A stretch of 64,000 nt of DNA from assembly GCA_015956445.1 (NCBI GenBank), contig WIUZ02000002.1, positions 930,001 through 994,000 on the forward strand. Reading direction: 5' to 3'. Every line of letters begins with the position of its first letter. Positions within the stretch are counted from its first letter, which is position 1. Shown here in pieces: positions 2,658-31,477 of this stretch. The notes below the pieces were generated by a model. That model had not been told where the DNA came from, searched no databases, and saw nothing but the letters and a program-made list of their open reading frames with translations. Position numbers and translations under genes: made by a program. The DNA comes from Thelephora terrestris. Lineage: Eukaryota > Basidiomycota > Agaricomycetes > Thelephorales > Thelephoraceae.

Positions 2658-2698
2658 ACCTCTGCCAAGCCTCTGCCTATCCCTACTATTGTACAGGG

Positions 2699-5842: not shown

Positions 5843-6323
5843 ATAGTTTATTGTAGAGGCTACATGACTCAGGTTTAAGTATACAACATATGCTTCAAAA
5901 CAATAATTGACAAGATCAGCCTAAATACCGCCATTCCATGCTGTTGCTGGAGATGTCAGCCTCAATGCCATCGCCGCCACCATTGGTTTCCATGCCATCG
6001 TCGACCATCGCCTCATCGTTCAACCATATGGCTCATAACCTCCACAGATGGGACCCTGCCAACGCCTCGCTCACCACAGTCACCTTGTTGCTGGACATAA
6101 TGTCGAGTTGAAGCGACAGTAGTGAATTATGCACGTGTCGTGTTTCGTCACAGAACATTTGCGCACGTGGCGTTAGTGCGTGTTGGGGGTATCATGGATT
6201 GATTCCGTGCGTTCAAAGTCGGTCTTGTTGAAATCCAGTTCGATCTCGAGTTTGGCTTCGCAGAGGGTGTGGCTTTTAGGAAGAAGGCTACGAGGAACGA
6301 GACGATCGCTGGTTGATGGCAGG

Positions 6324-7851: not shown

Positions 7852-7995
7852 AGTTTGGTCGGAATTGGTCGGAAAGAAAGTGGCAGGTGTAATTACAAAT
7901 CACGAACTACCCGAAACCGACCGAACTTTGGTCGAACTATAGCCAAGTGACCAAACTTTGGTCGAAAACTGACCTAATCTTTTCCTACAGTGATA

Positions 7996-8098
7996 CTCTA
8001 TGAGTAAAATTTGCCCCCTTGGGGGCATTGAGGAACTCATGAGAAAAATCATTCACTTTTAAGACAAAACGTCACAAAGTCTTAATCATTTTAATAAG
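7996..8098. other. Short spacer between CACTA element and LTR-type unit
   Basis: About 100 bp of AT-rich sequence with no gene signal. It ends in ATAAG (8094-8098). The same five bases follow the right end of the LTR-type unit at 30530-30534, so this is possibly its target duplication. Confidence 0.4.
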
Positions 8099-8660
8099 TA
8101 CTACTGCTAGTGGCAACCTCAACGTACGTCCGAACATGAGGAGGTCGGGCCTAGACTCATGGGACATGAGGGATTACAGATTCGCTGGCGTTTCACACTA
8201 ATGGCTGCTTCCACATTCGCTTGGCTAACCAAAAGGAGTCTAAGGCACTCCTTCTAAATAACGGTGATTCCTTCCTCCAGTTAGGAGACTGTGATGTGAC
8301 TGTCCACGTGTGGGATCAGGGTCCAGGGTTTGTCATTATCATGATGTCATAAAAGAGTCATCAGGGTCGTAAAGGGGTTCGTAAAGGGGTCATCAAGGTC
8401 ATGAGACCTATTTTTAGTGCACGCGTGTTCTCAGCGTTCCGGAACGAAGTTCTTCCAAGGCCGTCCCGTGGGCTGAGGTGTCAGCTTGATGTAGTAAGCC
8501 AACGATGATGGTACAGTGGCGGAAGTTGATGTGACCCAGACCAATGAGGTTCGTCGAGGTAGGTCACGTGAAGGATCACTGATCTAGGCTATAAGAAGGT
8601 CGTCTTCTTGGAGCCATCCTTGATCAGCAACACCAGCAACTTCCCCATCATCCTACCAAA

Positions 8661-9480
8661 ATGTCTTTCCCCAACAACCATACCTACCAAGTCGCCAATG
8701 GTATCTCCACCATCTCCCGTATTGACCGCTGTGCCGCCAACCGCAAGAGCTACGCCAGTGAGGCGGGGGTTCCATACACCACCGATGAACAGGTGGGGAG
8801 GAGCTTGAAATAACTTTTGTTAATTCTAACTCTTTCTCAATGATCTTGGAGGTCGTCAAGCAGGTGGACGCTGAACGTCTCAGGGAGACGATCCCGCATC
8901 TGATGGGGTTGACCTGGGATGATGAGCTCTGGGTCCGGTCCATGATCGCCGAGAAGGTGATCTTCCAAATGAGGGGTAGGTTCAGGGAGTTGGAGCATCC
9001 AATCAAGAAGGAGCTCTGGTACACCCTGCAGAGAGGGATCTACGCTACGATCAGGGCCTGTTGGAGCACGGGGCAACCATTCCTCGGGCTGTCCGCCACG
9101 CCACTGCTTCCACCACGCTGTTGTGGTCGCTGGTTCGAGAGGGGGAAAGCCGGGTAGGTTTTCCGTTTGGATATATTCAAGTATGACTCTCAACTAACCA
9201 AACTGCCTAGGTTGAACGGTTGGAGCATGAGGTGAAAGAGGCGAAGGCTGAAGTGCTTCGTCAGTCAGCCGAGGGTCTCTTGATGAAGGAGACCATGGCT
9301 GCCTTCCAGAAGGGGACGAACAAGGCGTTGGAGGCGATGGTGGCTAACCATCAAGAGCTGGTCGCCGGCCTGAAGGTTTGGGATGTCAACATCAGGAAGG
9401 CCCTGGATACAAGGGACGATCGCCTGGATAGGCACTCGAAGAAGATTGGGGATGAAAGCGCAAAGGTTATTTCAGCCTTT
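8661..9480 (+). pseudogene. 5' half of the LTR-unit gene (copy of the 479-aa gene)
   Basis: Start ATG at 8661 (MSFPNNHTYQVANG). Exons 1-3 correspond one for one to the intact minus-strand copy at 15513-17251: N-terminal MSFPNNHT exon, donor after DEQ near 8792; a middle exon with LRETIPHLMGLTWDDELW; and a coiled-coil-like exon ending near 9463 at ESAK. The frame shifts near the end of the second exon relative to the intact copy. The following intron is interrupted at 9480 by the CACTGGGGGCA element. The rest of the gene resumes at 28413. Confidence 0.75.
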
Positions 9481-9834
9481 CACTGGGGGCAGACCCCTAC
9501 TTGCCTGGCAGGCAAATTGAGGGTTTTTTGAGGGTTTTTTAACAATTTACTCAGATTTTACCCAGTGGGTTAATTGTGAACAAATTCAAAACTTACCCAC
9601 CACTTTGCCCACACTTTGATCAGTGGGTAAGTTTTAAATTTGTTCTGAACAAGCTCATCAGTTTGCCCACGAGATACTTCTTTGACAAAGCTCCAAGGGT
9701 TCTTTCACAAATTGCACAAAATGTGTCCACCATATTATCTGAGCCACTTGCCCAGGGTTCTTTCACAAATTACCCAGAAATTTGCCCACAACATGTTCAA
9801 TCATGTACACAGTGGGATTGTTGAGAGTTTGTTG

Positions 9835-10745
9835 TGATTACATCAAAGAAAACTTGGTGGGTATGTTACTGAGTATGTTGTTGAACTAGCTGAACACTCC
9901 GGGTAGTCGGATACCCTAGAAAGAGTGGACAAGCAGTTGAGGTGGGTACCGGTTGAGTGTTGAGTTCTGTACGACCACCGGAACAGAAGATCTGTTCAGG
10001 GATGCCCGAAGATGTCTGGAGAATCACCGGGGAAGACTGCAATGACTAGAGTAAAGCGCAAGATTCGAGACAAAGCAGAGAGAGATAGGAACTGAGGTTG
10101 CGGAGAGTTGCGATGGAGAATCACCGCGAAGTCGTAAGGTAGTGGAGGTAGGCTTTGGTAGGAGCAGCAATAAGACACAGAGAAGCTGAGAACTTTGACT
10201 TGAGAACTGGAGAGCGAACCGGGAAACTGGAGAACCTGGACTGGAACTGAACTGGGGGATCTGAGTCGATGGATTTCAGGCTATCTAAGACACAGTATAT
10301 AAAGGAAACCGAAGAATCTCCTAAATAAGCAGTGTCGAGATAGTCTGTGAGAGAGAAGGGGGAATGGAAAAGCGAAACTAAGAGGAACTTGGTGAGAGGG
10401 GTAACTACTAGGGGGGGAATGACGACGAAGGCTGAGTAACTACAGGGATGATGACGAAGGGGTGACGACGGCACGAGAGGAAGCCGCGTCATACAGGAGA
10501 AGACGCAGGGGAACAGGAATCGAGAGCGGAAGATAGCAATGGAGGCAAATGCCCGGAGAACGGAACGGAACGGGGAATGGAACTGATCGATCGACGGGGA
10601 AGTTCTGATCGATAAGGAATCGCGGGGACGAGAGCGCAGAACGATGGGATAACCGGAGATCGATGGCGGGAGGAATCAATAACGATAGATAGCGATGGCG
10701 GAGGGCTAGAACGAGGGTCGAAACGAGGATGAAAGGCGAGGGGAA
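9835..10745. other. Central part of the 9481-28412 element, no gene seen
   Basis: Purine-rich on the plus strand with scattered GGAGAATCACCG repeats (about 10017 and 10113). The minus-strand frames at 9996-10754 are serine/proline/leucine-rich with no recognisable domain and are treated as compositional. Confidence 0.5.
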
Positions 10746-10990
10746 CATCAGCAAACTTGTCCCAGCCCGATCTGGCCAGACGGAGAATGCCGGGCCAGAT
10801 CAGGCCAGCCGAACCAAGATCCTGCGGGCGCCCCGCTGATCTTGATCCGACGAGGGACCAGTTCGACCCTTGGTGTGACCCAAGTGTGACCGGGGGTTCT
10901 GCCAGCCCAGATCACATGAGACGTGGCCATATCTGGCGGACGCCCTGCAGACCTTCGCAGTTGAGGACGGTCGGGCCTCAACTGTACAGT

Positions 10991-11031
10991 AGTAGTCACA
11001 CGTAGTCACAGATATATATAATTAATAAAAT
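10991..11031 (+). promoter_or_regulatory. Duplicated promoter block of the small-gene pair (copy 1)
   Basis: GTAGTCACA-type words followed by an ATATATATAATTAA TATA-like stretch (11012-11027) about 55 bp before the ATG at 11082. The same arrangement recurs at 11828-11865, before the second gene copy. Confidence 0.55.
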
Positions 11032-11081
11032 ATGAGATATGGCACAAGTGCGACCGCCTTCCCCCTTTTCCCTCTGCAAAA

Positions 11082-11677
11082 ATGGCCGGACTGCCCTTCA
11101 CCATTCATTTACACCCTACTCGCGATTCCCCCTTCCAGTGGATGCCCCCCCGCCTGGAGGAAAGATACCTGGAGCAAGCGAGGATTCAACGCCAACACCA
11201 GTGAGTCTGCCATCAATTACTCAATTGAATGTCATACCTGACAGCGCTTCCCATCAGGAACGCTTATTTTGACGCGGTCTCCAGCCTTTGCACGCCGAGA
11301 GTCCGGACCTTGATCTCGGCACATTGCCGAGAACGCCTCAACACGCTCAACGCGGCGGCGGAAGCCGCCATCAAAGAGAATGTGGCAGACGCCGACCCGG
11401 AATATGCAATGATGATCAACACGTTCACTCAGCTCGAGCTGAGTTATTATCTAAGCGAACAGTACCTGTAAGTTTTTCATTTATGTAACGTTCGCCCAGA
11501 CTGACTCGGCATGTTCCTAGGGAAGCGTACGAGGCGCTCATCAAAGCCATCGGCATGCCGTTCTTCGATGTCGCCGGAGACCGCCTCAACAAAAAAGACG
11601 ACCGCAAGGCAACCGAAGAAGAGAGCGAGGCAGACATGTTCTTGTTCCTCGCTCAAGCAGCGGCCATGCACGCATGA
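11082..11677 (+). CDS. Small helical protein, unknown (161 aa, 3 exons), tandem copy 1
   Basis: Model: 11082-11200, 11258-11467, 11521-11677. Both introns (57 and 53 bp) have GT..AG ends and keep the frame, giving 162 codons with TGA at 11675. The protein begins MAGLPFTIHLHPTR, is rich in Ala, Glu, Leu and Arg, and reads as mostly helical; there is no signal peptide or membrane segment. I do not recognise the family. The gene lies just inside the left end of Plavaka element 1 and is followed by a diverged tandem copy with the same exon layout, which supports the model. The conserved coding frame between copies suggests it once mattered. It may be cargo, or an accessory gene of the element. 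Confidence 0.65.
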
Positions 11678-11943
11678 GCGAACCGGGTATTTTGAGTAGC
11701 CGAAAAAAAATTGTATGTTTTTTGTATGTTTTTGTATGTTTTTTGTATGTTTTTTTCAATGTAAATGACTCGCCTGCAAACTCGACCTCAGGCCCCTGCC
11801 AGCAGGCTCAGCTGTATAGTGCAACTCGTAGTCACACGCGGTCACACTAATATATATAATTAAAAAAACATGAGATCATCAGATTGAATAGTGACAAGTC
11901 CGAGCGCCGCCTTCCCCTTTCCTCTACAAAACCGACGAGCACC

Positions 11944-13870
11944 ATGCAATATTATCCAACTCGTCCCGCCCCCTTCCAGTGTTTGCCCGGCTCTCTGGCA
12001 GAAGAATTCAGGTCCCGCGACAAGCTTCGTGAAGACTTACAGTAAGTTCAATGATCAATTACTCAATTAGATCAGTGACGGCCTGACACGACTCTTCACA
12101 TCAGGAATATTTTTTTTGATGTGGTCTCCAAGGTTTTCACGCCGAGAATCCAGGCCATTATCTTGGAGCAGTTCGAGGACCGCCTCAAGAAGCTCTGCGC
12201 GGCGGCGGAAATAGAGATTTAAAAAAATGTTGCCGTCGCCGAGCCGCAATATGCGGCCATGATCAACATGAGGACCCAGCTTGAGCTCCTTAACATCTTA
12301 TGCGAAGAGTACCGGTATGTTTTTCTGTTTATGTAACAAACGCCCAGACTGACATATTCTCAGGGAAGCGTACTTCCGGCTCATGAAGATCGTCGGCGTC
12401 CAACTCTTGGACGTCATCGGAGACCCCCTCACACTGGGGGCAAGGGTTGGTTTACTGAGTTAGTAAACTGTAAGCAAATTGCAAGCATATGGAAAAAGAA
12501 CCCAGCCAAATACTTGCCTGGCAAGCACAAAGCAAATTCACAATTTACTGAGCCAATTTACCTGCAATTTACTGGGTTCAGTATGTGCTCAGTATGTTTA
12601 CAGTTTACTGGGTCATGTGACCACAGTTTCCCCATTAGGTAAACCTCGGAAAAATTCACAATTTACTGGACAAATTTACCCACAATTTACTGAGCCACTT
12701 GCCCAATCAGTATGTTTCCAATTTGCTGAGCGGTTTGATCACAATTTACTGGACTCAGTAAACTGGAAAAAAACCAAACTGGTTTACTGACGACATCCCT
12801 GATTGGTCAATTTGAAAAATAACCGAAAATTTACCTGGACGTGTCATTGTCAGTAAACTGCAAGTTTTCTTTCAGTAAATTGGAAATACACGTCAGGTAA
12901 ACTGGGAAAACACGTGACGATTTGATTGTGGTTTACTGGACTCAGTAAATCAGAAAAAAACCTAACCAGTTTACTGACGATGTACCTGATTGGCTAATTT
13001 GAAAAAAAACTCGAAAATTTACCAGGACGTGTCTTTATCAGTAAACTGCAAGTTTTCTTTCAGTAAATCGCAAATACACGTAAAGTAAACCAGAAAACAC
13101 GTGTAAACTGTAAGTAAATTCAAAGTTTACGTGTTTTCTGGTTTACTTTACGTGTATTTGCGATTTACTGAAAGAAAACTTGCAGTTTACTGATAAAGAC
13201 ACGTCCTGGTAAATTTTCGAGTTTTTTTTCAAATTAGCCAATCAGGTACATCGTCAGTAAACTGGTTAGGTTTTTTTCTGATTTACTGAGTCCAGTAAAC
13301 CACAATCAAATCGTCACGTGTTTTCCCAGTTTACCTGACGTGTATTTCCAATTTACTGAAAGAAAACTTGCAGTTTACTGACAATGACACGTCCAGGTAA
13401 ATTTTCGGTTATTTTTCAAATTGACCAATCAGGGATGTCGTCAGTAAACCAGTTTGGTTTTTTTCCAGTTTACTGAGTCCAGTAAATTGTGATCAAACCG
13501 CTCAGCAAATTGGAAACATACTGATTGGGCAAGTGGCTCAGTAAATTGTGGGTAAATTTGTCCAGTAAATTGTGAATTTTTCCGAGGTTTACCTAATGGG
13601 GAAACTGTGGTCACATGACCCAGTAAACTGTAAACATACTGAGCACATACTGAACCCAGTAAATTGCAGGTAAATTGGCTCAGTAAATTGTGAATTTGCT
13701 TTGCACTTGCCAGGCAAGTATTTCACTAGGTTCTTTTTCCATTTACTTGCAATTTACTCACAGTTTACTGACTCAGTAAACCAACCCCTGCCCCCAGTGT
13801 CAGCCAAAGGGATGGCCGCAAGGAAACCGAAGACGTGAACCGCCTCAACAGGCTCGGGCGGCTCGCTGAG
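11944..13870 (+). pseudogene. Tandem copy 2 of the small-protein gene, broken by nonsense and foldback insertion
   Basis: Exon layout copies 11082-11677: ATG at 11944, donor at 12043, acceptor just before 12105, second intron at 12315-12363. At 12220-12222 the codon AAA of copy 1 is TAA. Exon 3 is cut at 12431 by a 1.37-kb foldback element and resumes at 13800, where GGCCGCAAGG corresponds to GACCGCAAGG in copy 1. The 3' part has also diverged (CGGCTCGCTGAGGCAGC). Its TATA-like block at 11849-11862 repeats that of copy 1. Inactive twice over. Confidence 0.8.
12432..13799. mobile_element. Foldback element, CACTGGGGGCA family, arm type A (copy 2)
   Basis: A 1,368-bp nearly perfect palindrome centred near 13115, very similar to 1292-2657 along its whole length. 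Its ends are CACTGGGGGCAAGGGTTGG and the inverse. TCA flanks both ends (12429-12431 and 13800-13802). It interrupts exon 3 of the second small-protein gene. Confidence 0.92.
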
Positions 13871-14010
13871 GCAGCTTCGGGGCATCGAATGAACTGATGA
13901 ATTTTTACTGTGCGACGGTTGCACCCGATATATTTTTTTGTATGTTTTCTTATGTAAATCATATTTCGATACAAAAAATGGATTCATTTATTGTGTGTCT
14001 CCAAGCGGCG

Positions 14011-14105
14011 GTTCCATTTGAGCGGCTCGCTGAGCCAGCGGCCGTGTTGCACTGAATGAACCGGGCAATTTTGACTGCACGGTTGCCATACCTGGTATGT
14101 TATTT
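14011..14105 (+). pseudogene. Third remnant of the small-gene 3' end
   Basis: The words CGGCTCGCTGAG, GAATGAACCGGGCAATTTTGA and TGCACGGTTGC repeat, with changes, the 3' end of copy 2 (13859-13930). They also match the stop-codon region of copy 1, which carries CGAACCGGGTATTTTGA. Only the 3' end is present. Confidence 0.55.
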
Positions 14106-15328
14106 ATATGTTATTTATATGGCACAAATGCATATCTCGAGACAAAAATTGTATTCAGATTGCGGAAACGGCTAGGTAAGAAAACATGATTATATAGTGG
14201 GTCTACCGTAGCGCCGTTGTTCTGTTTAAAGGTCTGCCATGCCATAGGACTCGTAACTGGCCTCGGACGTGATCTCGTCGGAATCATCCTGGCCTTCATC
14301 GCCAGCTGAGGCCACCGCTGAGTCCGAGTCTGAGTGTTCGGCTTCTGACTCGCTATCACTGGCACCGGAGTCGTCCGATGAGATCTTGGCATCCTCAGGG
14401 TCGTCGTCACTGTCGTGCGCGTCACCGCCATCACCTTGAGGGGGGCCGGGCTCGCGGTGGGGCTGCTTCCCATGCAAACGTTCTCGCGACATATTCTCGT
14501 AGTTAGATTCCACCTCCCGCATGTACTTGTGGCCAATACCACCTCCTCTGTATCGCATGAACATGTCGCGATCGACGAATCTGGTAGATAACAAAAAAGT
14601 TAGACCAGCTGTACCTATAGATGCATATTACTTACTGGTTGACGTAGTACGCATTCCAGTCGGACTCCTTCTTGAGGTCCCACACGCTTGCCGGGTCTGC
14701 CAGAGAATGGGATCGAAGTCCAAGGGTGAAGCCAGGGATGAGGTGAGAGCCGCGAATGACATCGTCAGGATCAAGGAACCCGAATGCGCCGTCTTCGAGG
14801 GATGGGACCAACTTGATTCGATACAGGCGCTTGGCCTTCCAGCCGGCTCGCAGTGTCTCGTCCAGCTTGAACCAACGAACCCAAAGGACGTCCATCCTGA
14901 CCTCGTCTGACATTGTTGGCCCATGGAGGACATCAACTTTGAATATCCCGAGAACTCGCGCGTAAGAATATGGGTGGTTCGAGTTGTTGGCTCGTGAGAG
15001 GGTCATGACGTGCGAGCGGTTTCGCATGTTCACCCTGTCCTTGCCGCGGCGGAGATTGTACGTCGTGTGGTATAGATTCATCCCGTATCGCTGTTCGAGA
15101 CGGTCCTCGGCTATGTAGAGGTCGCCGCGGTCCTTCCCAGTGAACGTGGGGGGGTCGGGGTCATACTGCCTGTTGAGGATGCGAGCAAGAAGGTGGTCCT
15201 TGAGCTTTGTGACAAAGCCCTGAAGGAGGTGCTGTTAGCTTGGTTTGAACAGGCGATGGAGTCAGTCCTTACGTTCAGCGCGGGGTCGCCAACGTGCAGG
15301 TTAGCCAGAGTATACAAGTCCACATGGT

Positions 15329-18300
15329 TGTCAGGAACATGGTATTTTTAAACTTTTTATAACACGCTCTTTCATCGAACTCTTCTTACCAATTCTTATG
15401 TTTCGAATGCTTCGCACTCCTTATCCTTCACACCAATCATTCGAAACACACACACGCGCGTACTATTCCCAGCGAATTCACAACGAGCTATACAAGTGCT
15501 ATCCTAATCCCATCAAAAGTCGACTCTATCTACGACAGGCCTGAAGGTCATCAACTGTCCATCCCGGAGATCGTAGTGCTGGCCCCTCCTCGCAAGAACC
15601 TCCCCGAACATGGCGTCACCATCTTCAGCACTCAGCTGAACGACTAGTTCAAGCCGATAGGAAGAGATACCTTCGAGCGGACCGATCAGCCTCCCAGATG
15701 TCACCGAACTCTGGAACACCTGGTCCCACATCGCCATCACCGGGTGACTGCTCGACAGCACTATCGACGTAGTCGGCAAGCGACCCTCCGTCTCCCTCAT
15801 CGGACCCCTGGGTGGGATCCTGTCTTGCGAGGCGAAGCTGGTGTCGGAGTTGGATCTCGGACTCGACCTGTCGGTAAGGACGGTGGACCCGATATCGGAA
15901 TCCTCGCTCCTCACCTCGACCAGAGAGGTCACCATCCGACTCAACTGGTCGAGGGTAAGGGTTAGCCGAAGGGGCCATGCGATGAGCAGGACGGCGTCGA
16001 GAGCGTTTGCAACGTTGCCCCTTAGTCACCGGACGTACCTCGGCGACCCTCGGAGCATCTTCGGCTCGGTCAACCTCCATGACCTCATCCTCGATCTTCA
16101 CCAACTGATGGATTGGCTGCAAGACGCAGCGACCACAGTTCTCCTTGTCGGAAGCGGCCAAGGTGGAAGCCGGACCCGGAGTTGGAACGGGAACCGCGTT
16201 TTCGATCGGAGGCGTCGCGTAGGACGACGGGTTAGGCGATGGGAGTACCACCTCGTCGGCGTACTCCAACTCGAACGGAACATCGGCGGTCCCCTCACCA
16301 ACCAACTTGGGACCCTCTTGGCAGTTGCAGGTCTTGTCCTGCAAGGACTCGACCTGCGCTGTCAACACAGCCACCACATTCTCGAGTTCTTCGGTCTAGG
16401 AAATGTCAGCTTCCCTCATTTCATCTTCGAGATGAGGAAAGCTACCTTTTCATCCCTCCTGGCCAATGCTCCCTTAATGTTGTTGTCCCTAACCTTCAAC
16501 CCGGCGATCAACTCTTGATGGTTGGCGACCATTGCCTCCAACGCCTCGTTCGTTCCCTGCTGGAAGGCAGCCAAGGTCTCCTTCAATTGAAGACCCTCTG
16601 CTGACAAACGAAGGACGTCTGCCTTCGCCTCCTTCACCTCACGCTCCAAACGTTCAACCTAGGCAGTTTGATTAATCGAGAGTCATACTCGAATATTCAA
16701 ACGAAGGACCTACCTTGCTCTCCCCCTCCCGAACGAGCGACCACAACAACGACGTGGCGGCAGTGGCATGGCGAACGGCCCGAGGAACGGTTGCTCCGTG
16801 CTCCAATAGGTCCTGATCGTAGATTCCCCTCTGCAGGGTGTACCAGAGCTCCTTCTTGATCGGATGCTCCAGCTCCCCGAACCTACCCCTCATACGGAAG
16901 GCCACCTTCTCGGCAATGATCGTACGAACCCAGAGCTCGTCATCCCAAGTCAACCCCATCAAATGAGGCATCGTCTCCCTGAGACGTTCGGCGTCCACCT
17001 CCGTGACAACCTCCAAGATCTAGAAGCCGTTAGCTGGACATCAACGCCCAAAAGAACGTAACCTCTACCTAGAGGAAGGCGTTAGTGCAAACACAAGAAG
17101 CTCTAGGTCTCCCCCATACCTGGTCATCCGTGGTATAAGGAGTCCCAGCCGCACAGGCGTAGGACTTGCGAGCGGCGGCACGACGGTCGATACGGGAGAT
17201 GGTGGAGATACCATTGGCGACTTTGTAGGTATGGTTGTTGGGGAAGGACATGTTTTGGTAAGATGATGGGGAAGTTGCTGGTGTTGCTGATCAAGGATGG
17301 CTCCAAGAAGACGTCCTTCTTATAGCCTAGATCGGTGATCCTTCACGTGACCTACCTCGACGAACCTCATTGGTCCGGGTCACATCAACTTCCGCCCTTG
17401 TACCATCATCGTCGGCTTACTACATCAAGCCGACACCTCGGCCCGCGGGACGGCCTTGGAAGAACTTCGTTCCGGAACGCCTAGAACGCGCGCGCACTAA
17501 AAATAGGTCTCAAGACCCTGATGACCCCTTTATGACATCACGAACCCCTTTTACGACCCCTCATGACTTTACAATTACGACCAACCCTGGACCCTGATCA
17601 CACACGTGGACAGTCACATCACAGTCTCCTAACCGGAGGAAGGACTCGCCGCTATTCGGAAGCATCGCCCTAGGATTCTTCTGGTTAGCCCAGCGCATGT
17701 GGAGTAGCCGTTAGCGTGAAACGCTGGCGAATCTGTAATCCCTCATGTCCCATGAGTCTAGGCCCGACCTCCTCATGTTCGGACGTACGTTGAGGTTGCC
17801 ACCTGTCCGTGATGCTGTTACCGCCTACAGACAACAAGGGATGTTGAATGTCTCTACTCCCGAATCCAGCTGGCAGAGGCCATGTAAAGGGAGATTGACA
17901 CCTGGCCCTTGGGTGAGATCCCCAGGTACGAACTTTCACGACCCCATGCTCCTATTTCCATTTGGACTAGTGTTATCTTTACCCCTATGTTTCATGCGGA
18001 CATTCCTTATCTTTTATGCAATCCTTCACACGCTAGTAAGGCCCTTTGTCTTTTATTCTCCCACGCGTCACCTTTGTTCGCTTCCCTTACTTAGCGTTCT
18101 CACACTCCTTATCTCCCTTTGTTCTGGACTTGATAAGGGTATATTAGGGTATTGACGTCATGGCCACTCCTTTAGTATAAGTAGCAACTGTGGCTGTATC
18201 GTAGTACCTTAGTTTTGTTACCTCAGGAAATCCTCTGCCCTTCTCAGCCCAGTTGCAGTTAAGGACAAGTCAGAGTTTCTTGTTTGATCCAAGACATCCC

Positions 18301-18631
18301 CCCCATCTGCTCTCCCTCCCGCTCTGCGCGTCAACTGCGCCTCGTAACTATAGACTCCCAGCAGTCATATTAGAACACCTCGAGCGTCCAGTCGATCAAC
18401 TGGTGGAGTCATCAATCCTGTTGTAGGGATCAACCCTTGCGTGTTAAACCGAACGAAGTACGGTTTAGGTTGGGTTTCTCTTTAGGATTTCGACCTGACT
18501 TGCAGTGACCTCGGACAACCTACCGGAAGAATAGAGACGTGATCGTTCTCTCACAAGCTAGTTGGACTAGTGAGTACTCTGCGGAGTCGGCTCAGTGCAC
18601 TGGTAGTTGTTGGGGTAGAGTGGCCCTGACA
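15329..18631 (+). mobile_element. LTR-type unit (3.3 kb) with antisense gene and no pol
   Basis: Begins TGTCAGGAACATGG and ends GGCCCTGACA, with ATGGT on both sides (15324-15328 and 18632-18636). TG..CA ends plus a 5-bp duplication are LTR-retroelement hallmarks. Only one copy of the terminal sequence is present and no reverse transcriptase is seen, so it is not a two-LTR element. A promoter-like GACGTCA followed by TATAAGTAGC at about 18155-18183 points along the plus strand. The left half holds a five-exon gene on the minus strand. The best reading is a very large solo LTR whose U3 holds an antisense gene; an unknown transposon type with 5-bp duplications is the alternative. Confidence 0.65.
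15513..17251 (-). CDS. LTR-unit protein, unknown (479 aa, 5 exons)
   Basis: Model (minus): 17120-17251, 16714-17019, 16446-16658, 16039-16395, 15513-15944. All four introns have GT..AG ends and every exon is a whole number of codons, for 480 codons in total. Exon 1 encodes MSFPNNHTYKVANG. Exon 2 has PHLMGLTWDDELW. Exon 3 is heptad-like (coiled coil, ELKET/ALEAMVANHQ). Exon 4 carries a TCNCQEG cysteine motif and a proline stretch. Exon 5 ends VDRVDF. Plus-strand copies at 8661-9463 and 28450-30341 keep the same splice sites, and a diverged relative at 31002-31244 keeps the C-terminal frame (YRLKL, GDIILG), which supports exon 5. It could be a gag-like protein, but that is only a guess. It is antisense to the unit's own promoter. 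Confidence 0.65.
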
Positions 18632-21600: not shown

Positions 21601-21880
21601 CCAAGGGATGTTTGTCCTTCCGGGGTGTCCCAGTGACTTTTATTTATGTGGATACCGAGTCCGCGGATTGAAGAAAACTCTCGCCCTGCACAATCTCCCT
21701 CGTAGCAAAGATGGGGCATCGTACCTGTGAGTGTTGCGATTAGAGTTGCACGATTGCAGCGGATGCAACTGGTGCATCGGATCTATCCTTGTTTGGAGTT
21801 TGCTAACTGAAACAAATAAACCGCACAGGAGGGATACATTAGGGGTGCAACCGCCCATCGAATCCCTCCCTCGAACGACC

Positions 21881-23361
21881 ATGGCAACGCAGCTTTCTGA
21901 GAACAATCCCCAGAGGTATGTAGCACCTCGCAAACCCCATCCGATAACCACGCGCTTACCCTACACTTCAGCGAGCCCAAGCTCACCCCTCAGGAGAACG
22001 AAGAAATCAGGGAAAAATCGAGTTGGCTCCGTCGAGTTGCAAATCCCTTCGTGGACTTGTATATTGTCGTCTCCATTGGAGCTGCTGGCTCTGCAGCAAC
22101 AGAAGTTTCTCGCCGTCCCGAGGATAGGCGGGCACGAGACCACGCCCAAGACCTGTGAGTGCCTCCAACGCCCACCTTACAATGATTATTCACTGTGCCT
22201 TCTTATAGCACACTGGTCCAACGAGAGATCTACACGGCAGACTTCAACGCAATCACCAGTCATCTGCCCTTTCTCAAATCCCGCCTCGAGTCCGATGTCC
22301 CATCAAAGTTTATTCAGAAGATCTTACGCCAAGTGAGTCATTGCAAGCTGTTCCTGCTTCTATTACTCGCGGAACCCATCAAACCACTTAGGTCCAATCA
22401 TTTGTGTCTCGTGCTCGGCAAACAGACACGAAGACGACCAAGCGCTCCATCGTCAAACTCATCCCACAGAAGTACCTGCCGCTCGGTGAAAACGGCAAAA
22501 TTCCGGCAAATGCATACCAAGACTTAGAAGTAAAAGATCCGGATGCCTCTAAGTCCTGGCGTGGCTGGGAGACTCTCACCACCGCAAGGCTGCTGTGCCC
22601 CATCGACCACCTAGCCACGTTTGAGACGGACCCAGAGAGGTAAGTGATTGAACATTTTTATGTGGGGTCCCTGGCCTAACGACTTACGCCGTTCAGTTCC
22701 AGAATGAAATTACGCGACGGGGGGCTCTCGTTGATCGACAGCAAAGGTGATCCAAAGTTTCCAGCATTCCTTTACGACGAAGACGTCATGGATGGCTCCC
22801 TCGCACAGGGCCTCTTCCGAGGCCCACTTTTGCTATCAGTAAGTCATCCGTCACTCCTACGCAATAGGTTGTCAACTAATCATTTCTATTCAGGTCTACA
22901 AACTCATCTTCATCGCGCCTTCCGCTGCGACAGGTGCAAAGGTCTCGTTAAAGCGGGGAAATTCACGAATCCATGGCATGGAGAAAGTCATCCCCTCGAC
23001 AATATGTTATGCGGCGATACAGGTGCGTGTTTGACATCCACCAAAGTAACACAATTTAAAGGTGCCGGCCGCCGCAGTCTTCTAGGCGTACATCGCGTTG
23101 TGCAGTGTCTCAGAATGGAAGGAAGAATGGAAGGGCATCAAGTTTCCACGCCTCTACATGCTTCTACGCGAGCAATTTGCTTATCCTGATGATCCCTGGT
23201 ACTCCAACACCTTGCAGTGGTGGAACGAGCAGGTCTTCGGCGCGTCCCAACAAACCGATGGGAACCAACCCCCCGAAACAACTCAGGATGCGGAGGGACC
23301 CTCCACTCGCGAGCGCAGTGACTATGAACGGCAGGAGAGGATGCGCACAGCAGCAGAATGA
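21881..23361 (+). CDS. Intact 7-exon gene inside Plavaka element, DUF6698-like (378 aa)
   Basis: Model: 21881-21915, 21972-22154, 22209-22332, 22392-22639, 22697-22838, 22894-23022, 23086-23361. All six introns are GT..AG, 52-63 bp, and phases agree throughout. The protein starts MATQLSENN and contains LYIVVSIGAAGSAATEVSR, then a core with RSIVKLIPQKYLPLGENG, RGPLLLS, RIHGMEKVIPSTICYAA and WYSNTLQWWNEQVFG, and a polar tail. The last blocks recall a widespread Agaricomycete family of unknown function that I associate with DUF6698; this is from memory. The gene is divergent from the Plavaka transposase, with starts about 160 bp apart (21719 and 21881), so they may share a promoter. The open frame implies selection or recent acquisition. 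Confidence 0.7.
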
Positions 23362-23687
23362 TTTTTTGTTATCAGCTTATCTACTATCCTACACATGTAA
23401 CAATGCCCACCTGCCTGAAGAAATACTCGAAGTCTGAATGTCGCCAAATTAAGCTTTTTCTATTTGGTCGTGTTTGGCAACGACCCCATCAAAGCGGGAG
23501 TCACTCAAAACAGGAGCCGCCCAAAATAAGAAAATTGAACAACCGTAATGGCCTCTTCCGGGCCGTAGGCACTCCCACGTTCGTGAGAAACAAGGGTGTT
23601 TCTCCTGCCTGGGCATTTATAATCTCGGGCCTCACCAAATCTGCCCTGTCTGCATCCTCTCCACCTTCTATCACATTCTCAGTCTCG

Positions 23688-24267
23688 ATGGGCTTCCCTT
23701 CTCGGAGATCTTTCGTCGTCTTCTCCTCTGATTGCAAGACAGTTTCACGGTATGTCTACTACTTCCCATTATGGTCATGATTATTTTCTGCGAGACTGAT
23801 CATCGTCTTTATCACTATCGCGGCAGCTTCAAGTCGATCTACCCGGATGAGTCCGCCACACCCAATCCACTCACAGTGAGTTCCCTCTTAACGATTATGT
23901 CGGTTTTGAACGATTAACAACCTCATATGCCTACAGTCATTGTGTTTATTCACCCGCTTATCTAGACGAGGCCACCGGCAGATCAAAACCAGCTTTCAAA
24001 CCCTCAGCAATTTCAGGGTCAGTCGGGGAGAGTCCCAGGTGAGTGTGGACCGATCATTGATTCCGTTAACTCTTCCGCCCTTGTTTAATTATTGCACCCC
24101 AGATCTGTGCCTCCGCAATCGACTCCGACTCGATCCCGGCAGATGATGAAATCCCCGCCCTCCTGTCCCTAGACGACAACCCCCCCTCCCGACTCCTATC
24201 GCAATTCCCGCCTCTCGCTGTCCCCTCCTTGAAGTCGCACAGCGTGCCGTCCTCAAACACCTTCTGA
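23688..24267 (+). CDS. Putative small 4-exon gene, unknown (125 aa)
   Basis: Model: 23688-23749, 23827-23875, 23937-24038, 24103-24267. Three introns with GT..AG ends keep one open frame (126 codons including TGA at 24265). The last exon is rich in Asp/Ser/Pro/Leu (SIPADDEIPALLSLDDNPP). The start codon is the weak point: the frame is open further upstream and a 5' exon may be missing. No homologue is recognised. It lies between the 378-aa gene and the right end of Plavaka element 1. Confidence 0.4.
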
Positions 24268-24529
24268 GCTGGGACCGCCTCTGTCGCCAGCACGCCTTCC
24301 TCGTATTCATTTTTCGCTGCTCCCTATTGTTTACCGTCGCTGTCTGCTACCTCTCGGTGTATTCCGTTTAATATACGCCGGATATTTTGTATTTTCCGCT
24401 AGCAGTAAAATAAATCGTGATCATTTGAATAATTGTTTTTATCGTGAATAATGGATATTATATAATTTGATTTTGTGGAAATTGGTACGGGCAATATATT
24501 AAAATAATATCTGTTCACACACCTCAGGA

Positions 24530-24727
24530 GATCTGGCCTGATAGCCCTACAGGTGCTCATGATCTGCCCAGCTCGTGACAAAGGTGGGACAGATCTCTCG
24601 AGGAAATCCCGGATCTTCGGTTATCTGTATAGCTCTCTGCCGATCAACTCTGTATGGACAGATGGCCGCATATCTGGCCTTTTATGGGAAGAGCTGGCCA
24701 GATCTCTCCCGGACTAATCTGCTGATG
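24530..24727. repeat. Right subterminal repeats of Plavaka element 1
   Basis: Reiterated words of the type GAGATCTGGCC, GCATATCTGGCC and GGCCAGATCTC. The left subterminal zone 10746-10950 has the same words (GATCTGGCCAG, GGGCCAGATCAGGCC, CCATATCTGGC). Probable transposase-binding sites. Confidence 0.6.
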
Positions 24728-25203
24728 AACGAGGTGTCAGGGATATCAGAGTTCCAGACACTGGGGGCAAGGGGTCAAATACCCAGTGGGTACATGTTGA
24801 ATACATTGTGATCACAGTCAAAAAGTGATCACAATGTGCCCAGTGGGGAAAATTTGAATACATTCAAAATGTGCCTGGCCATGTGAATCCAATGTACCCA
24901 TCAATGTGATCTCAATGTACCCACTGGGGACATGTCACAAATGCGTGACATAGTAGCCAAGATCGCACAAGTAATACAAGACATTGGTCTTATTCGCAGT
25001 AGTAATAGTACAAAAGCAACTAAAAGAAACTACAAATTCAAACAAGAACGAACGGGTCCACGTCACAAGCACAGTCCTGAGCAAACGGACAACGATGAGC
25101 GAAGTGGTGAGGGTTATGCACGCTCTGAGGACAGTACGCGTACTCTCGCGTTACCGGATCCTGCCAACACTCCCTGCACCCCAATACATCATGAAACAAA
25201 CTG

Positions 25204-25932
25204 TCATGCATTTCCCGCTTCACGTCCGTTAACGCCGCGCTCACTAATGCAAACCCATAACGGTCCTGGAGACCCGCTACCTCCACCTTCAACCTCATTT
25301 GAACCTGCTGTGACTTGTTGGAGGGACGACAACGTTGACCAGTACGAGTCATCGGACTCTTGCGACTTTTCTTCTCGGTCCTCTTCACCAACTGACAACT
25401 CGGGACAGGACTCCAAGGAGGGGACTGAGGAAGAGGAACTCCTCGATCGTGGAGATGGCGGAGGGACGCCGGGGGGGTGAGGAGCTGCGTCGGTACAGTA
25501 CGCTCCGTGGCATCGATGACCAAAGTATCGGATGAGAGATTCCTGAAAGGGTTTCCAATGTTCCAAGGCAAAGTGAGAGAAGTCTTCGTTAAGACTGTTA
25601 ACAACGACATACATAACATCCATCCTCTTCTCCAACTTCAAAATCCTATCCTCCCTCTCTTGTTCCATGGCATCTTGCATGGGGGTGACCCCAGGAGCCC
25701 ATCGCCTGGTCCTGTTGGGATCCTCGTACCCCGCTTGTTCCCAAAACTCGGCAGGGGCGTTGTGAGCGGTCAAGAAGTCCACCGCCACCTGGTTGTCATG
25801 AGCGATGTTGGCGGGGGAATCATATAGGTGTTGCTCCACGTCCAGGGGAGCGTCCGTCTCGAACGACGGAGAGAAGTCGAAGGGGGTGGCCGCAGCGTTG
25901 AGCAGAACGTTGTTGGCAGCGTAGGCAGACAT
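25204..25932 (-). CDS. Antisense protein of the 2.24-kb LTR-type unit, unknown (242 aa)
   Basis: A single open frame from ATG at 25932 (MSAYAANNVLLNAAATPF) to a stop at 25204. The N-terminal half is acidic and globular-looking. At residues 105-145 there is a coiled-coil-like segment (RILKLEKRMDVMYVVVNSL). Then come a Pro/Ser-rich stretch and an acidic tail. A second minus-strand frame overlaps from 25619 to 25038, so a spliced longer product is possible. No family is recognised. Position and strand mirror the 479-aa gene of 15513-17251, including a start near the unit's middle and an end a few hundred bases from the TG end. Confidence 0.5.
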   Translation of the reverse strand: MSAYAANNVLLNAAATPFDFSPSFETDAPLDVEQHLYDSPANIAHDNQVAVDFLTAHNAPAEFWEQAGYEDPNRTRRWAPGVTPMQDAMEQEREDRILKLEKRMDVMYVVVNSLNEDFSHFALEHWKPFQESLIRYFGHRCHGAYCTDAAPHPPGVPPPSPRSRSSSSSVPSLESCPELSVGEEDREEKSQESDDSYWSTLSSLQQVTAGSNEVEGGGSGSPGPLWVCISERGVNGREAGNA

Positions 25933-26498
25933 TTAGCAAAGTGGTTTAAAGGGTAGTAGTTGGTTTGGTGGGAGTGGAAAAGAGATGATGAGGGGAACGA
26001 TCATTAATCCCCCTGATTTAAATACATCCTGACTCAAAGAAAACTGGAAAGGGAAGACAATAACCTATTATCCATTAACGTCCCAATTAGGATAAACAAA
26101 CCCTCAACCCCAGTCGTGATCCCATCAAATCCGAGAAATCCCCATCGATCATAGGAAATCCCCATCAGTCTTCTACTGCTACCATGAAAACGAGAGAAAT
26201 CCCCATTGTACTCCTAATGACTCATTTGCTATTGTTCCCCTATTTTCATTTCGTCATTTGTCGCTCCAAAGTCCCACTTCTCTGACTCATCTACCCTGCC
26301 CTAAACTACGCACAGACCATGTTGATCCCTGTTTGATTTGTTATAGAATAATGACTCTTGTAGAGAACGGGGTATATAAGGAAGAGCGTTCGCTCCTTTC
26401 TTTTCCCCATTCTCAATCTCTTCTGTACTCATCTACCTGTCCCCTCAATATAAAGTAAGCCCAGGAATCCTCCTCGTGCCTTACCCTTCTCTGACTCC

Positions 26499-27152
26499 TT
26501 GAAGCAGGAATCCTCCTGCCAGTGTATGTTCAGAGCCCCTAACCCCTTCCCTTCCACTAGTCCCATCCAACGCCCCGTCATACCCGACGCTAGAAGGTCT
26601 GTCTGGGAGTATAAACTCATCAGAAGCCTTCAAGTAAATCGAACTACCGGTTTACTAACCCATTTCCCTTATTATCGTCCCTTCGCAGCCCTCGACTCCA
26701 GAGTCACCACTCCTCCTTTCTTGTTAGGAGCAGACCATCAGTTCCTCTGGAACTCAGACGTCACTGAGAGCGTACTAGCCACCGTCTATTTCAGCATAAG
26801 CCCGGCCTTTTATTTCCCCAATCCCCGCATTCATCTTACCACTAACGTTCACACCCACTCCCCTGCCATTATCGTCTTGTGGTGGGAAATCCCAACTGAA
26901 CTACCTTATTCTGTTCTAGAATACCTCGTGAGCTTTGAACGTCTTAGCGACCACGACTTCGACCCCTTTATTCAGCAACTAAATCAGTTTTGTCACGACT
27001 ACCACTCACCCTTCCACCCTTATCAATCGGAGTCACCACTCTCGCTTGATATTCCCCCTCCTCTCACTTCCACTCCCGGAACTCCTTTCAATACCCGCCT
27101 CGATACTCCTTACCCATCCACTAATCCTCTAGCGCCCCCTTTAAAACAGTAA
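26499..27152 (+). CDS. Open frame downstream of the LTR promoter, unknown (217 aa)
   Basis: A plus-strand frame starting MKQESSCQC and ending PLAPPLKQ just before the unit's right end, about 125 bp downstream of the TATATAAGG box. It is rich in Pro, Ser, Thr and aromatic residues with no domain I recognise. It could be a read-through of R/U5-type sequence and not a gene. Confidence 0.25.
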   Translation: MKQESSCQCMFRAPNPFPSTSPIQRPVIPDARRSVWEYKLIRSLQVNRTTGLLTHFPYYRPFAALDSRVTTPPFLLGADHQFLWNSDVTESVLATVYFSISPAFYFPNPRIHLTTNVHTHSPAIIVLWWEIPTELPYSVLEYLVSFERLSDHDFDPFIQQLNQFCHDYHSPFHPYQSESPLSLDIPPPLTSTPGTPFNTRLDTPYPSTNPLAPPLKQ

Positions 27153-27886
27153 GCAGGCCCACAACCCTGACAGGACATTTTGATTGTGATCAGAACGTGC
27201 CCATCAATGTGATCTCAATGTGCCCAGTGGGGACATTTTGATTGCAATCACAATGTACCCATCAATGTGTTCACAATGTGCCCAGCTCATTACATAATGG
27301 TTTCTTTCACAATGTTGTCCACAATGTCTCCAGCATGTGGCTGAGCCACACATTTAAACTTCTTTCAAAAATTATCCAGTGATGTGTCCATAATGTCCCC
27401 AGGGGGTTCTTTTTGAAGTAATCACAATGTAATCACAATATTGTTCAATTTCACCATGAACTTTAAAAGAAATCACTATGTATATGGGTGTACACATTCT
27501 AGACACATCACTGGATACTTTGTGAAAGAAGTTTGAATGAGTGGCTCAGCCACATGCTGGAGACATTGTGGACAACATTGTGAAAGAAACCATTATGTAA
27601 TGAGCTGGGCACATTGTGAACACATTGATGGGTACATTGTGATTGCAATCAAAATGTCCCCACTGGGCACATTGAGATCACATTGATGGGCACATTCTGA
27701 TCACATTGATGGGTACATTGTGATCGCAATCAAAATGTGCCCACTGGGCACATTGGATTCACATGGCCAGGCACATTTTGAATGTATTCAAATTTTCCCC
27801 ACTGGGCACATTGTGATCACTTGTTGACTGTGATCACAATGTATTCAGCATGTACCCACTGGGTATTTGACCCCTTGCCCCCAGTG

Positions 27887-28124
27887 AGAGGGTCAAGTAG
27901 CGGGTGGCAGATGGCAGAACGCGAGGATTCGAAACAGGGTTCCTGAGGGGGGATGCAAAGCGGGGAAGAACGTCCAAGGAACAATAGAGGCGGTCCGGTG
28001 ATCAGGGTGAAGGTTGCCTCAGGGCAGTCGCGAGGCCGGGAAGAGTCCGGAACTCAATGGGGTCGAACGACCAATAGGAAGGAATCGGAGACTGGGAGTT
28101 TCAACGTCGCGACATCGTGAGCAA
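27887..28124. other. Remainder of the 9481-28412 element between nested insertion and right arm
   Basis: Two hundred and forty bases of mixed composition with no gene signal. It joins 24758 across the AGA duplication when the nested element is removed. Confidence 0.4.
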
Positions 28125-28449
28125 GTTTTGAAAGAACTCTTGATGAGTGGCTTGGAGCATGTGGTGGGCACATTTGGTGCAATTTGTGAAAGAACCCTTG
28201 GGGTTTGTCAAAGAAGTACCTCATGGGCAAACTGATGAGCTTGTTCAGAACAAATTCAAAACTTACCCACTGATCAAAGTGTGGGCAAAGTGGTGGGTAA
28301 GTTTTGAATTTGTTCACAATTAACCCACTGGGTAAAATCTGAGTAAATTGTTGAAAAACTCTCAAAATACCCTCAATTTGCCTGCCAGGTAAGTAGGGGT
28401 CTGCCCCCAGTGTTTGCAGGTTTATGTGATTGCTGACAGACTTCTTCTA

Positions 28450-30341
28450 GATCGAGGAACTCGAGGACTTGGTGTCTGTGTTGACGGCGCGGGTCGAGTC
28501 CTTGCAGGACAAGACCTGTAACTGTAAAGAAGGTCCTGTGTTGGTTGAACAGGGGACAGCCAATGTTCCATTTGAGTTGGAGTAGGCCGACAAGGTGGTA
28601 CTTCCGTTGCCTAACCCGTCGTCCTACGCCACGCCTCCGGTGGAGAACACAGTTCCCGTCCCCACTCCGGCTCCAGCTTCTACTTTGGCCGGGTCTGACA
28701 AGGAGAATTGTGGGTGCTGCGTGCTGCAGCCGATCAGTCAGCTGGTCAAGATCGAGGATGAGGTCATGGAAGTTGACCGAGCCGAAGATGCTCCGAGGGT
28801 TGCCAAGGTACGTCCAGTGACTACAGGGCAGCGTTGTAGACGCTCTCGACACCGTGTTGCTCATCGCATGGCACCCTCGGCTAATCCTTACCCGCATCCA
28901 GTTGAGTCGGATGGTGACGAGTCTGGTCGAGGTACAGGAAGACCCTTCCGATATCTGGTCAACCGTCCCCACCGACAGGTTGAGTCGGAGGTCCAGCTTA
29001 GGCACCTCACCCAACTCGCAGTACAGGATCCCGGTGACCCGCTGTCTATTCGCACGATCTTCGAATCTAGTATCGGTACCCAGCCTCCACCTCCCTACCC
29101 CGTTAACCGCCAGGTACGCAATTCGATGACTCCTTGATCAGTCACAGAAGTGTCACGCCCGCTCGACGTCACGATCGCTGAACCACTCCCGCGATCCCAT
29201 CGACGCATGCCCCTATTCGCTATCTCTGCCTCCGTGTCCACCCTCCCCGAACGGCACATGACGTTACAATCTGCCGATGTCTCCTGATCCCTTATCTCGT
29301 CGCGATGACGCGTCCCCTCCCCCGGTCCGGTTCCCTTCAGTCGAGACACGTGTCAACTCATTCCCTCACGCTCGCCAATCATCTTCAACTGCTCCCGCTC
29401 TCCCGCCCAGTTACGATCTTTTGATCTCGAACCCGTAGACTTCCCCTTTTGGTTCTGTTTCTCACGATCGCTCCATCCTCTCGGTAAGACCTGTCCCAGC
29501 CTCGTTCCGCCCTCCCGATGAACCGTTCGCCTCCCTACCCTGTGTCGGACTCTCGTTTATCTCCTTCTATATACCTGTTCTTATTCTCCCACTGTTTCTC
29601 CATTTGTTCAATACTTTTCCCATCTCTTTCGCGTAGATCGCACTGTCCTTACCTATAAATACCCTGTACTAGCTAGTTGAACGAACAAGAAACCCTTGGG
29701 CCTCTTCACACCTCTTCTCCCTTCTGCCTGAACAACCTGATCATCAAAAACCTCCAGCTCCTCGCTCTGACATCAATTCCACTAGCCCCATAGTTCCAAT
29801 AGCCCCCTAGCCCACTAGCCCATTGCCCACTAGCCCCCTAGCCCATCGTCATTGTCTAGCAGGAGTTTGCTAGTACGGAGTTCTCCCTTCTCGTCCCGAC
29901 AATGTCGCGACCTACCGTGGTTCCCCCTCCTCTGTCTAGCTTCTCTCCCCTTTCCGACCTCTGCACAACCGGCGACCCCTCACCCCCACTTCTGCTATTC
30001 TGGTCGTGTCCCGACTCCACCCAGATAGTAGCAGTTCACCGGCCAGGCCTCTGATGAGGGAGATGGAGGGTCTCTCTTCGACTATGTTGACAGTGCTGCC
30101 GAGCAGTCACCCGGTGATGGAGATGTGGGACCAGGTGTTCCGCAGTTTGGTTACATCTGGGAGGCTGATCGGTCCGTACGAAGGCATCTCTTCCTATCGG
30201 CTTGAACTAGATGTTCAGTTGAGCGCGGAAGATGGGGACGCCATGTTTGGAGAGATCCTCGTGAGGAGGGGCCAGTTCTTCGATCTCTGGGATGGAACGC
30301 TGATGACCATGAGGCCTGCCGTAGATCGAGTTGACTTTTGA
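28450..30341 (+). pseudogene. 3' half of the LTR-unit gene, with nonsense codon and inserted LTR
   Basis: Resumes after the CACTGGGGGCA element with the acceptor CTTCTAG at 28444-28450, then EELEDLVSVLTARVESLQ. A TAG replaces a codon in the block FELE-ADKV (about 28582). The intron donor GTACGTCC (28809) and the acceptor before TTGAGTCGG (about 28902) are conserved with the minus-strand copy. The last exon is cut at 29034 by a 1-kb LTR and resumes at 30043, ending VDRVDF with TGA at 30341. Confidence 0.75.
29035..30038 (+). mobile_element. Probable solo LTR (1,004 bp)
   Basis: Begins TGACCCGCTG and ends GCAGTTCA, with CCGG on both sides (29031-29034 and 30039-30042). Removal makes the surrounding exon the same length as in the homologous copy (15815-15830 region), which fixes the borders. 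A CTATAAATACC promoter-like box lies at about 29654. CTAGCCCACTAGCCC repeats occur at 29780-29850. No coding capacity is seen. Confidence 0.65.
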
Positions 30342-30529
30342 TGGGACGTTGATAGCACCGTATATAGCCATGTTGTTACGATTCGCTGGGAATGGTATGT
30401 GCGTTTGTGTGTTTTGAATGATTGGAGTGAAGAATAAGGAGTGTGAAACATTCAAAACATAAGAAATGGTAAGAAGAGTTCGAAGAAAGAGCGCGTTATA
30501 AAAAGTTTAAAAATACCATGTTCCTGACA

Positions 30530-31000
30530 ATAAGGTGAAAGGATAGGGGTAAAGGGGTAGGGTGGAGTTCCTTTAGGGGGAGTTCCTGAGGGGAGGGGAT
30601 CATTTTTTTCTTAGAATTGTGGTTGAGCTTCTTATATACTTTTACAACTAAGATTATTCTAGAACATTCCATCTGCTTCCATCTTGTTCTATGGTAAACT
30701 AAACTATTTCTATGTGTGACTTGTGTCACAAGTGTGATTAAATGTTACAAAGGTGTGACCTGTGTCACATGGGCTGTGACATTTCTGTCACCTTCTGGAA
30801 CATTCCAGCAAGTTCCAGGATATTCCGGCTCATTCCTGAACATTCCATTACTTTCCATAGCTTTCTATGACTTTTCCTGCTTCTTATCTTATCTGTCAAA
30901 ACTTTAATTTCATCTGCTTTGTCTGTTATCTTATCTTATCTCTGTTGTGGTAAATTATCATAAATAAGACATGGTTTTTCTGATGTCCGACATCAGCTAT
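30530..31000. other. Spacer with direct and palindromic words, no gene
   Basis: AT-rich, with TGTGACxxGTGTCAC words at 30715-30790 and a run of TTCC/GGAA palindromes at 30793-30860 (GGAACATTCC, AGTTCCAGGA, GAACATTCC). A TCTTATCTTATCT run occurs near 30930. No exon is supported. Confidence 0.5.
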
Positions 31001-31477
31001 TATGCCAGCTCTGAGTCTGATAGAGAGTCAAACAACTCTAAGGCCTACTTCCTCAATGGACCAAAGGGGAAGGGTGTTCTCCCCTCTCAGTAGGGTGATC
31101 CCGGGTTGGCTCGGTATCTTGGAAAATGGGCAGGGCTATCGCCTCAAGCTGTTCAGGCACATCGGGCTCAACAAAGGGGACATAATCTTGGGGATGATGA
31201 TGGATCACACTGGAGGCAAAGAGGTCGTGGATCCTGTTGATTAGAGAGGACTCTGTATGGCATCATTTAGAGGCTTGTTTGCACCTCATATAACCAGAGT
31301 TATCCAGCTATGTTTGGAATGATAACTCCTTTGCACATTTCTTATCTGGGTGATGGTAGAATGAATGAAAAGGAGTGTGTTGTGTTCAAACCAGTAAGAG
31401 AAGAGGAAAAAAGTTCAAAGAAAGAGCATTGTTATAAAAAGTTGAAAAATACCATGTTCCTGACACATCTAGCCAAT
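31001..31477 (+). pseudogene. Diverged end of another LTR-type unit with its gene's last exon
   Basis: The frame 31002-31244 (GQGYRLKLF, NKGDIILGMMM, ending VVDPVD) matches the C-terminal exon of the 479-aa gene in position and pattern. About 230 bp further on, ATAAAAAGTTGAAAAATACC and CATGTTCCTGACA reproduce the unit end seen at 30491-30529 and, inverted, at 15329. It is too diverged to align upstream. Confidence 0.55.

Follow-up and report, generated by a model that had tools for sequence, protein, structure and literature searches.

We found that a 64,000-nucleotide stretch of the genome of the basidiomycete Thelephora terrestris (hereafter the window; contig WIUZ02000002.1, here C12, positions 930001–994000) contains a nest of mobile elements in which long terminal repeats (LTRs) and LTR-like units carry genes that, judging by their substitution patterns, are under purifying selection. 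The nest consists of five levels of insertion. In the proposed order of events, a CACTG element (level 2) would have inserted into a gypsy LTR (level 1), a solo gypsy LTR into this CACTG element (level 3), and a Plavaka element and a second CACTG element into the solo LTR (level 4); a foldback, another solo gypsy LTR and a two-gene unit with LTR-like ends would then have landed in the level-4 elements (level 5). We assign a probability of about 0.85 to this reading of successive insertions, in which the gene lying antisense in the 3.3-kb LTR at 15329–18631 is taken as a probable accessory gene of the retroelement. The reading draws on the borders of the elements (save the far end of level 1), on uninterrupted copies of the inner elements, and on conserved genes in the LTR family shared by level 1 and 15329–18631 and in the unit at 24933–27172. 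There is nothing unusual in nested elements or in solo LTRs; the gene-bearing LTRs are what stands out. Solo LTRs are usually regarded as gene-less scars, while here LTRs and LTR-like units spread complete conserved genes, and repeat masking therefore hides a protein family.

Architecture of the nest

Borders were tested against other copies within the same genome (40.6 Mb, 60 contigs), which served for the copy comparisons. Its Plavaka and CACTG elements, like its short GT-AG introns, also point to a basidiomycete. The initial annotation had described seven elements nested four levels deep, with a target duplication marking every border. All seven duplication pairs are present in the window sequence, and six of the seven elements, namely the inner ones, were confirmed through uninterrupted copies elsewhere in the genome; for level 1 the claim does not hold, as its far end is missing. 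The nesting and the order of events are likewise borne out by these copies. The depth has to be revised, since a solo LTR at 9882–28114, overlooked earlier, lies between the level-2 CACTG element (L2) and the Plavaka element, and there are therefore five levels, not four. The solo LTR at 29035–30038 inside level 1 had likewise escaped notice. Altogether, the earlier observation is partly confirmed and the nest itself is real.

The uninterrupted copies cover the nest from the outside inwards. Locus L044 on contig C59, an LTR of the level-1 type, lacks the CACTG element and shows a 3-bp overlap (TTT) at the insertion point; together with the position in intron 3, it supports the earlier placement of L2 within an intron of the gene of the level-1 unit. 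The L2 family is represented by a nonautonomous-looking element of 723 bp with inverted arms of ~291 bp (L084, L085), to which the segment from 9882 to 28114 is wholly foreign. The duplication flanking that segment (TTGT/TCGT) has one mismatch, and the empty sites in L084 and L085 read TTGT once. In locus L041, neither the Plavaka site nor the site of the second CACTG element (CACTG2) is interrupted. In turn, a Plavaka copy on C22 (L047), 98–99% identical to that of the window, runs unbroken through the foldback site (3-bp overlap) and the 15329–18631 site (5-bp overlap), which shows the continuity of the Plavaka element at the DNA level. Finally, L040 is a CACTG2-type element without the unit 24933–27172 (6-bp overlap), which supports, for CACTG2, the earlier statement that removal of an insert restores an inverted-repeat arm. 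The pile presumably grows because DNA that is tolerated and already filled with repeats receives the insertions made by chromodomain-bearing integrases and by other elements. The coordinates of all features are given in Table 1.

Table 1. Mobile elements of the nest and the genes carried by its LTR-type units (window coordinates)
Feature	Level	Position	Strand	Target duplication	Remarks
Truncated solo LTR, family of 15329–18631 (gypsy)	1	8107–30529	-		82–86% identical; 5' end at 30529; ~826 bp of 3' end missing
Solo gypsy LTR TGACC..GTTCA	inside level 1	29035–30038	+	CCGG (29031–29034, 30039–30042)	1004 bp
CACTGGGGGCA element (L2)	2	9481–28412		TTT	in intron 3 of level-1 antisense gene
Solo gypsy LTR TGAAC..GCGACA	3	9882–28114	-	TTGT (9878–9881) / TCGT (28115–28118)	~1.1 kb without inserts
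Plavaka element CATCA..TGATG	4	10746–24727	-	AA	Plavaka transposase domain on -, DUF6698 frames on +
Second CACTGGGGGCA element (CACTG2)	4	24759–27886		AGA	outer arms 98% complementary
CACTGGGGGCA foldback	5	12432–13799		TCA	675-nt arms 98% complementary; absent from L047
Solo LTR, gypsy chromovirus	5	15329–18631	+	ATGGT	3303 bp
Predicted antisense gene, five exons		15516–17251	-		~497 codons; exons ~17251–17120, 17019–16714, 16658–16446, 16395–~15790, ~15749–15516
LTR-like unit TGTCA..TGACA	5	24933–27172	+	GGACA	2240 bp, two divergent genes
Conserved divergent gene		25038–25932	-		coiled-coil-like N part (to ~25494, by eye), then Cys/His-rich C part in next frame
Conserved gene, 208 aa		26526–27152	+		stop 20 bp from unit end

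A conserved antisense gene within a gypsy chromovirus LTR

The LTR at 15329–18631 belongs to a family of which 30 loci were fetched. Fifteen of them are single LTRs flanked by a perfect 5-bp duplication, and L036 is also single, with four of the five bases duplicated. Eight others form four same-strand pairs, with one 5-bp duplication shared across each pair and common inner flanks, and the remaining six match neither pattern cleanly. The internal region, as read in one element, encodes a zinc knuckle (gag), protease, reverse transcriptase (RT), RNase H, integrase, a Tf2-1-like SH3 domain and a chromodomain. The paired LTRs around gag-pol place the family in Ty3/gypsy. At C23:671349–680594 (L033/L034), two LTRs of opposite orientation carry crossed 5-bp duplications (GTCCT and GAAAG), a sign that they may have recombined or that an inversion took place between them.

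We found that variable sites on the antisense strand of this LTR favour third codon positions across five consecutive exons in an alignment of 29 copies (L037, the thirtieth, was dropped for its length). Counted by codon position over 497 codons, they number 105/65/306. The singleton ratio of nonsynonymous to synonymous change (dN/dS), a rough count from majority codons and not a likelihood fit, is ~0.34 for the gene versus 1.09 for noncoding sequence of the same LTR; it ranges from 0.17 to 0.59 in single exons and equals 0.30 when solo copies alone are considered. The modelled exons are intact in 27 of the 29 copies, while the ATG and the GT-AG borders of introns 1–3 are preserved in every one. 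In the sister family, which includes level 1, the third-position excess is clear in exons 1–4 and weak in exon 5.

We propose that the retroelement carries the antisense gene as an accessory gene. As this gene lies antisense, its introns would be invisible to the sense genomic RNA and would thus survive retrotransposition. A full-length copy would contain the gene twice, and solo LTR formation would leave one. Such an antisense, intron-keeping arrangement offers a testable account of how an intron-containing gene can be carried by a retroelement. As for the function of the LTR-borne proteins, regulation or protection of the element is our guess. Pfam searches with the LTR-borne proteins gave only matches below the cut-off (Dscam_C, E 0.0063; SlyX, E 0.021; DUF7500 and GH101_dom-5, E ~0.2), and for the antisense gene, PDB searches with exons 4 and 2 returned no match.

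A two-gene unit with LTR-like ends

The unit at 24933–27172 carries two divergent genes that also bear the marks of selection. Across 11 copies, variable sites in the plus-strand gene are distributed 57/21/166 over the codon positions and the singleton dN/dS, counted as above, is 0.25, while the two parts of the minus-strand gene give 0.32 and 0.42 versus 1.02 for the intergenic control. Eight of the copies keep the plus frame open from end to end. Near 25500 the minus gene shifts to another frame. A conserved 70-nt intron (GTATGT..CAG) would explain the shift, yet the stretch itself looks coding, and in copy L051 a 1-base difference keeps the gene in frame. Identity to the window copy is 87–96% in alignment A1, which comprises 10 of the 11 copies (L054, a 73% match, was left out, and L050 and L058 contribute only from residue ~41); alignments A2 and A3 comprise nine and seven copies, respectively. 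No PDB match was found for A1 (E up to 10) or A3 (E up to 1), and A2 gave only chance-level matches (best E 0.43). The single-sequence fold of the 208-aa protein had a mean predicted local distance difference test score of 35.5 and was unusable. A search for relatives in viral contigs yielded 36 pattern matches, none of them confirmed, and a part of the minus gene showed no similarity to exon 4 of the antisense gene.

We observed that the left end of the unit (24933–24950) is a near-palindrome with the unit's own terminal motif reading both ways; four of 10 copies start with TGTCACGAACGCGTG. A diverged relative (71%) of part of the unit is located at C12:911603–912245 (L083:4–646) and points to older lineages of the family.

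The initial annotation had called three members of the nest LTR-type units. The term is apt for level 1 and for 15329–18631, whose family has full-length gypsy members, and unproven for 24933–27172, for which we found no paired, RT-bracketing copy. The comparison rests on 27 units with both ends read, the window copy included; ten of the last 18 stretches examined had no recognisable start and two only a partial start, and these were not counted. A perfect 5-bp duplication of its own flanks 24 of the 27 units (two of them after a two-base shift of the end), and the other three come near, two with four of five bases and one with a 4-bp match. None of the 27 is paired around an internal region in the manner of Ty3/gypsy, and we file the unit only as LTR-like. 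Its 3' end pattern occurs at 107 places. The 100 ends listed differ in their flanks, save for an identical pair on C39 and C58 and one pair that is one base apart; therefore, no common internal region follows the unit.

We consider it about an even chance that the unit is the solo LTR of a gypsy family with genes in its LTR, all full-length members of which were lost by LTR–LTR recombination. The termini TGTCA..CCCTGACA and the 5-bp duplications are like those of the real gene-bearing LTR at 15329–18631, and that family is also mostly solo, with 16 solo copies (one with four of five duplicated bases) versus four full-length ones. However, the absence of pairs and the near-absence of shared 3' flanks speak against it: compared with the 15329 family, in which four of 20 insertions are full-length, the share of full-length members differs with a Fisher p of 0.027 (27 units) or 0.0006 (99 ends). 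Moreover, none of the 92 RT matches (PF17917) in the genome lies between two compared copies (100 listed ends and 41 of the 57 entries of the copy list), whereas each of the nest's three remaining LTR families does enclose RT matches, four of them in the case of the 15329 family when compared in this way. The insertions also look young by their duplications, although 11 compared copies differ among themselves by 11–18%. Most of this divergence therefore seems to have arisen before insertion, and the data fit several active lineages in which the mobile form is the unit itself.

The other explanation, a self-standing mobile element that has its own two genes and moves as DNA by means of one of its proteins or of a gypsy integrase acting in trans, we hold to be possible, at somewhat less than even odds. 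In its favour are the perfect duplications that most units own, the selection on both genes on terminal branches, and the failure to find an RT-containing partner. Against it, Pfam shows no transposase or integrase domain, and the ends look like LTR ends. Six RT matches have one listed end within 9 kb, and two of these lie on the same strand, on C1 (inside a 15329-family element) and on C45, but no second unit is found on their other side. A lost full-length form is the simpler rival, because the ends of the unit resemble those of a real LTR, and we lean slightly towards the solo LTR over the self-standing element. Only tentatively, and with a little more reserve than for self-standing movement as such, do we put forward that the unit represents a new kind of element, with LTR-like ends, 5-bp duplications, two divergent genes, no recognisable transposase or RT and ~100 copies as judged by 3' ends, moved as DNA via its own proteins or a borrowed gypsy integrase. 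If the two-gene unit indeed moves without paired LTRs, this would be an unrecognised transposition route.

Points weighing against successive insertions of gene-bearing elements

Several points count against the overall reading of successive insertions with conserved LTR-borne genes. The last intron of the antisense gene is only tentatively placed, and the join of the minus gene of the two-gene unit may be a 70-nt GT-AG intron or a frameshift. In the sister family exon 2 is damaged in some copies, with a 13-nt gap in the C59 copy and a 5-nt gap in level 1, neither of them a multiple of three. The rough counting of dN/dS has to be added, and expression and splicing of the LTR-borne genes are predicted from sequence. 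The assembly across 9480/28413 is testable only with reads; that the nest is an assembly artefact is nevertheless very improbable, since the borders of every inner element coincide with a family boundary and a duplication (one with a mismatch), which chimeras would not produce.

The remaining elements of the nest

The two shorter solo LTRs belong to Ty3/gypsy families, as same-strand pairs bracket RT matches elsewhere in the genome, judged on coordinates by eye. For the family of 9882–28114, such pairs lie ~10 kb apart on C2 and C15 with an RT match between them, and for that of 29035–30038 they enclose an RT match on C1, C14, C7, C5, C4 and C59. From these paired copies around RT matches we infer the minus strand for the former and the plus strand for the latter.

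The terminal sequence CACTGGGGGCA of the CACTG elements occurs 1153 times genome-wide versus 14 times for the reversed control. EnSpm/CACTA-type elements are described by CAC..GTG termini and a 3-bp duplication (PMC12730594). The window elements, with CACTG..CAGTG termini and 3-bp duplications, agree with this description; a 3-bp duplication was present in three of four paired copies, and two copies of the L2 family have TCA and TGA. They differ in that the copies examined are short and nonautonomous-looking. PlavakaB elements are characterized in the same source by CATCA..TGATG termini, a 2-bp duplication and a Plavaka transposase domain (PMC12730594). The Plavaka element of the window shares all three. 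Unlike PlavakaB as portrayed there, it yielded no TET/JBP domain when 12 of its 18 frame readings were scanned, and it has DUF6698 frames, located at ~22400–23030 on the plus strand, opposite to the transposase.

Relation to known gene-bearing LTR elements

The family of 15329–18631 resembles Ty3/gypsy chromoviruses (Tf1/Tf2-like) in its gag knuckle, RT/RNase H, integrase, Tf2-1-like SH3 domain, chromodomain, 5-bp duplications and TG..CA LTRs, but is unlike them in that its 3.3-kb LTR holds a conserved five-exon antisense gene. A protein gene within an LTR is known from a mammalian retrovirus, mouse mammary tumour virus, whose superantigen gene is in sense orientation; we claim no similarity. 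Plant LTR retrotransposons (Grande with gene23, RIRE2, Retand) carry antisense additional open reading frames (aORFs) between pol and the 3' LTR (PMC7264820). Like the gene described here, these aORFs are conserved, run antisense in an LTR retrotransposon and have no known function (PMC7264820). Our gene does not fall among such aORFs, because it lies within the LTR, so that full-length elements have it twice and solo LTRs retain it; its model also has introns. In the part of the literature covered by our search, no antisense gene embedded in a fungal LTR was found.

The left border of level 1 and the flanks of the nest

The initial annotation had the level-1 element end at 8099 with an ATAAG duplication. 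We determined that the level-1 LTR starts at 8107 (junction 8106/8107) and that the ATAAG at 8094–8098 is part of the terminus of a neighbouring long-inverted-repeat element. The segment 7993–8106 is 99% identical to C10:233400–233513 and 98% to C12:913664–913777, and forms the terminus of a repeat that is found in inverted pairs; in the window and on C10 it reads ATAAGTACTACTG. In L044, the family LTR runs ~826 bp further, up to the LTR 3' end. The level-1 LTR is therefore truncated and the left ATAAG is the neighbour's. A border at 8099 can be virtually discarded: ATAAG does flank both points, but it belongs to a repeat terminus found at other loci, and the LTR of the family goes on in L044.

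The long-inverted-repeat element occupies window 1–8106 (C12:913664–938106), with its right end at 8106 and its left end at C12:913664. An LTR piece past this element was considered as the lost end of level 1 and rejected, as it has the opposite orientation and stops at LTR position 987, and is thus another copy. The LTR pieces flanking the element come from different copies and point in opposite directions, suggesting that a rearrangement took place. Inside the element, window 1114–7991 is a ~6.9-kb insertion with inverted ends ACTGTAGG..CCTACAGT, and the sequence is uninterrupted at C10 (L045). Just outside the nest, at 31362–31465, another LTR with the same TGTCAGGAACATGG terminus starts on the minus strand.

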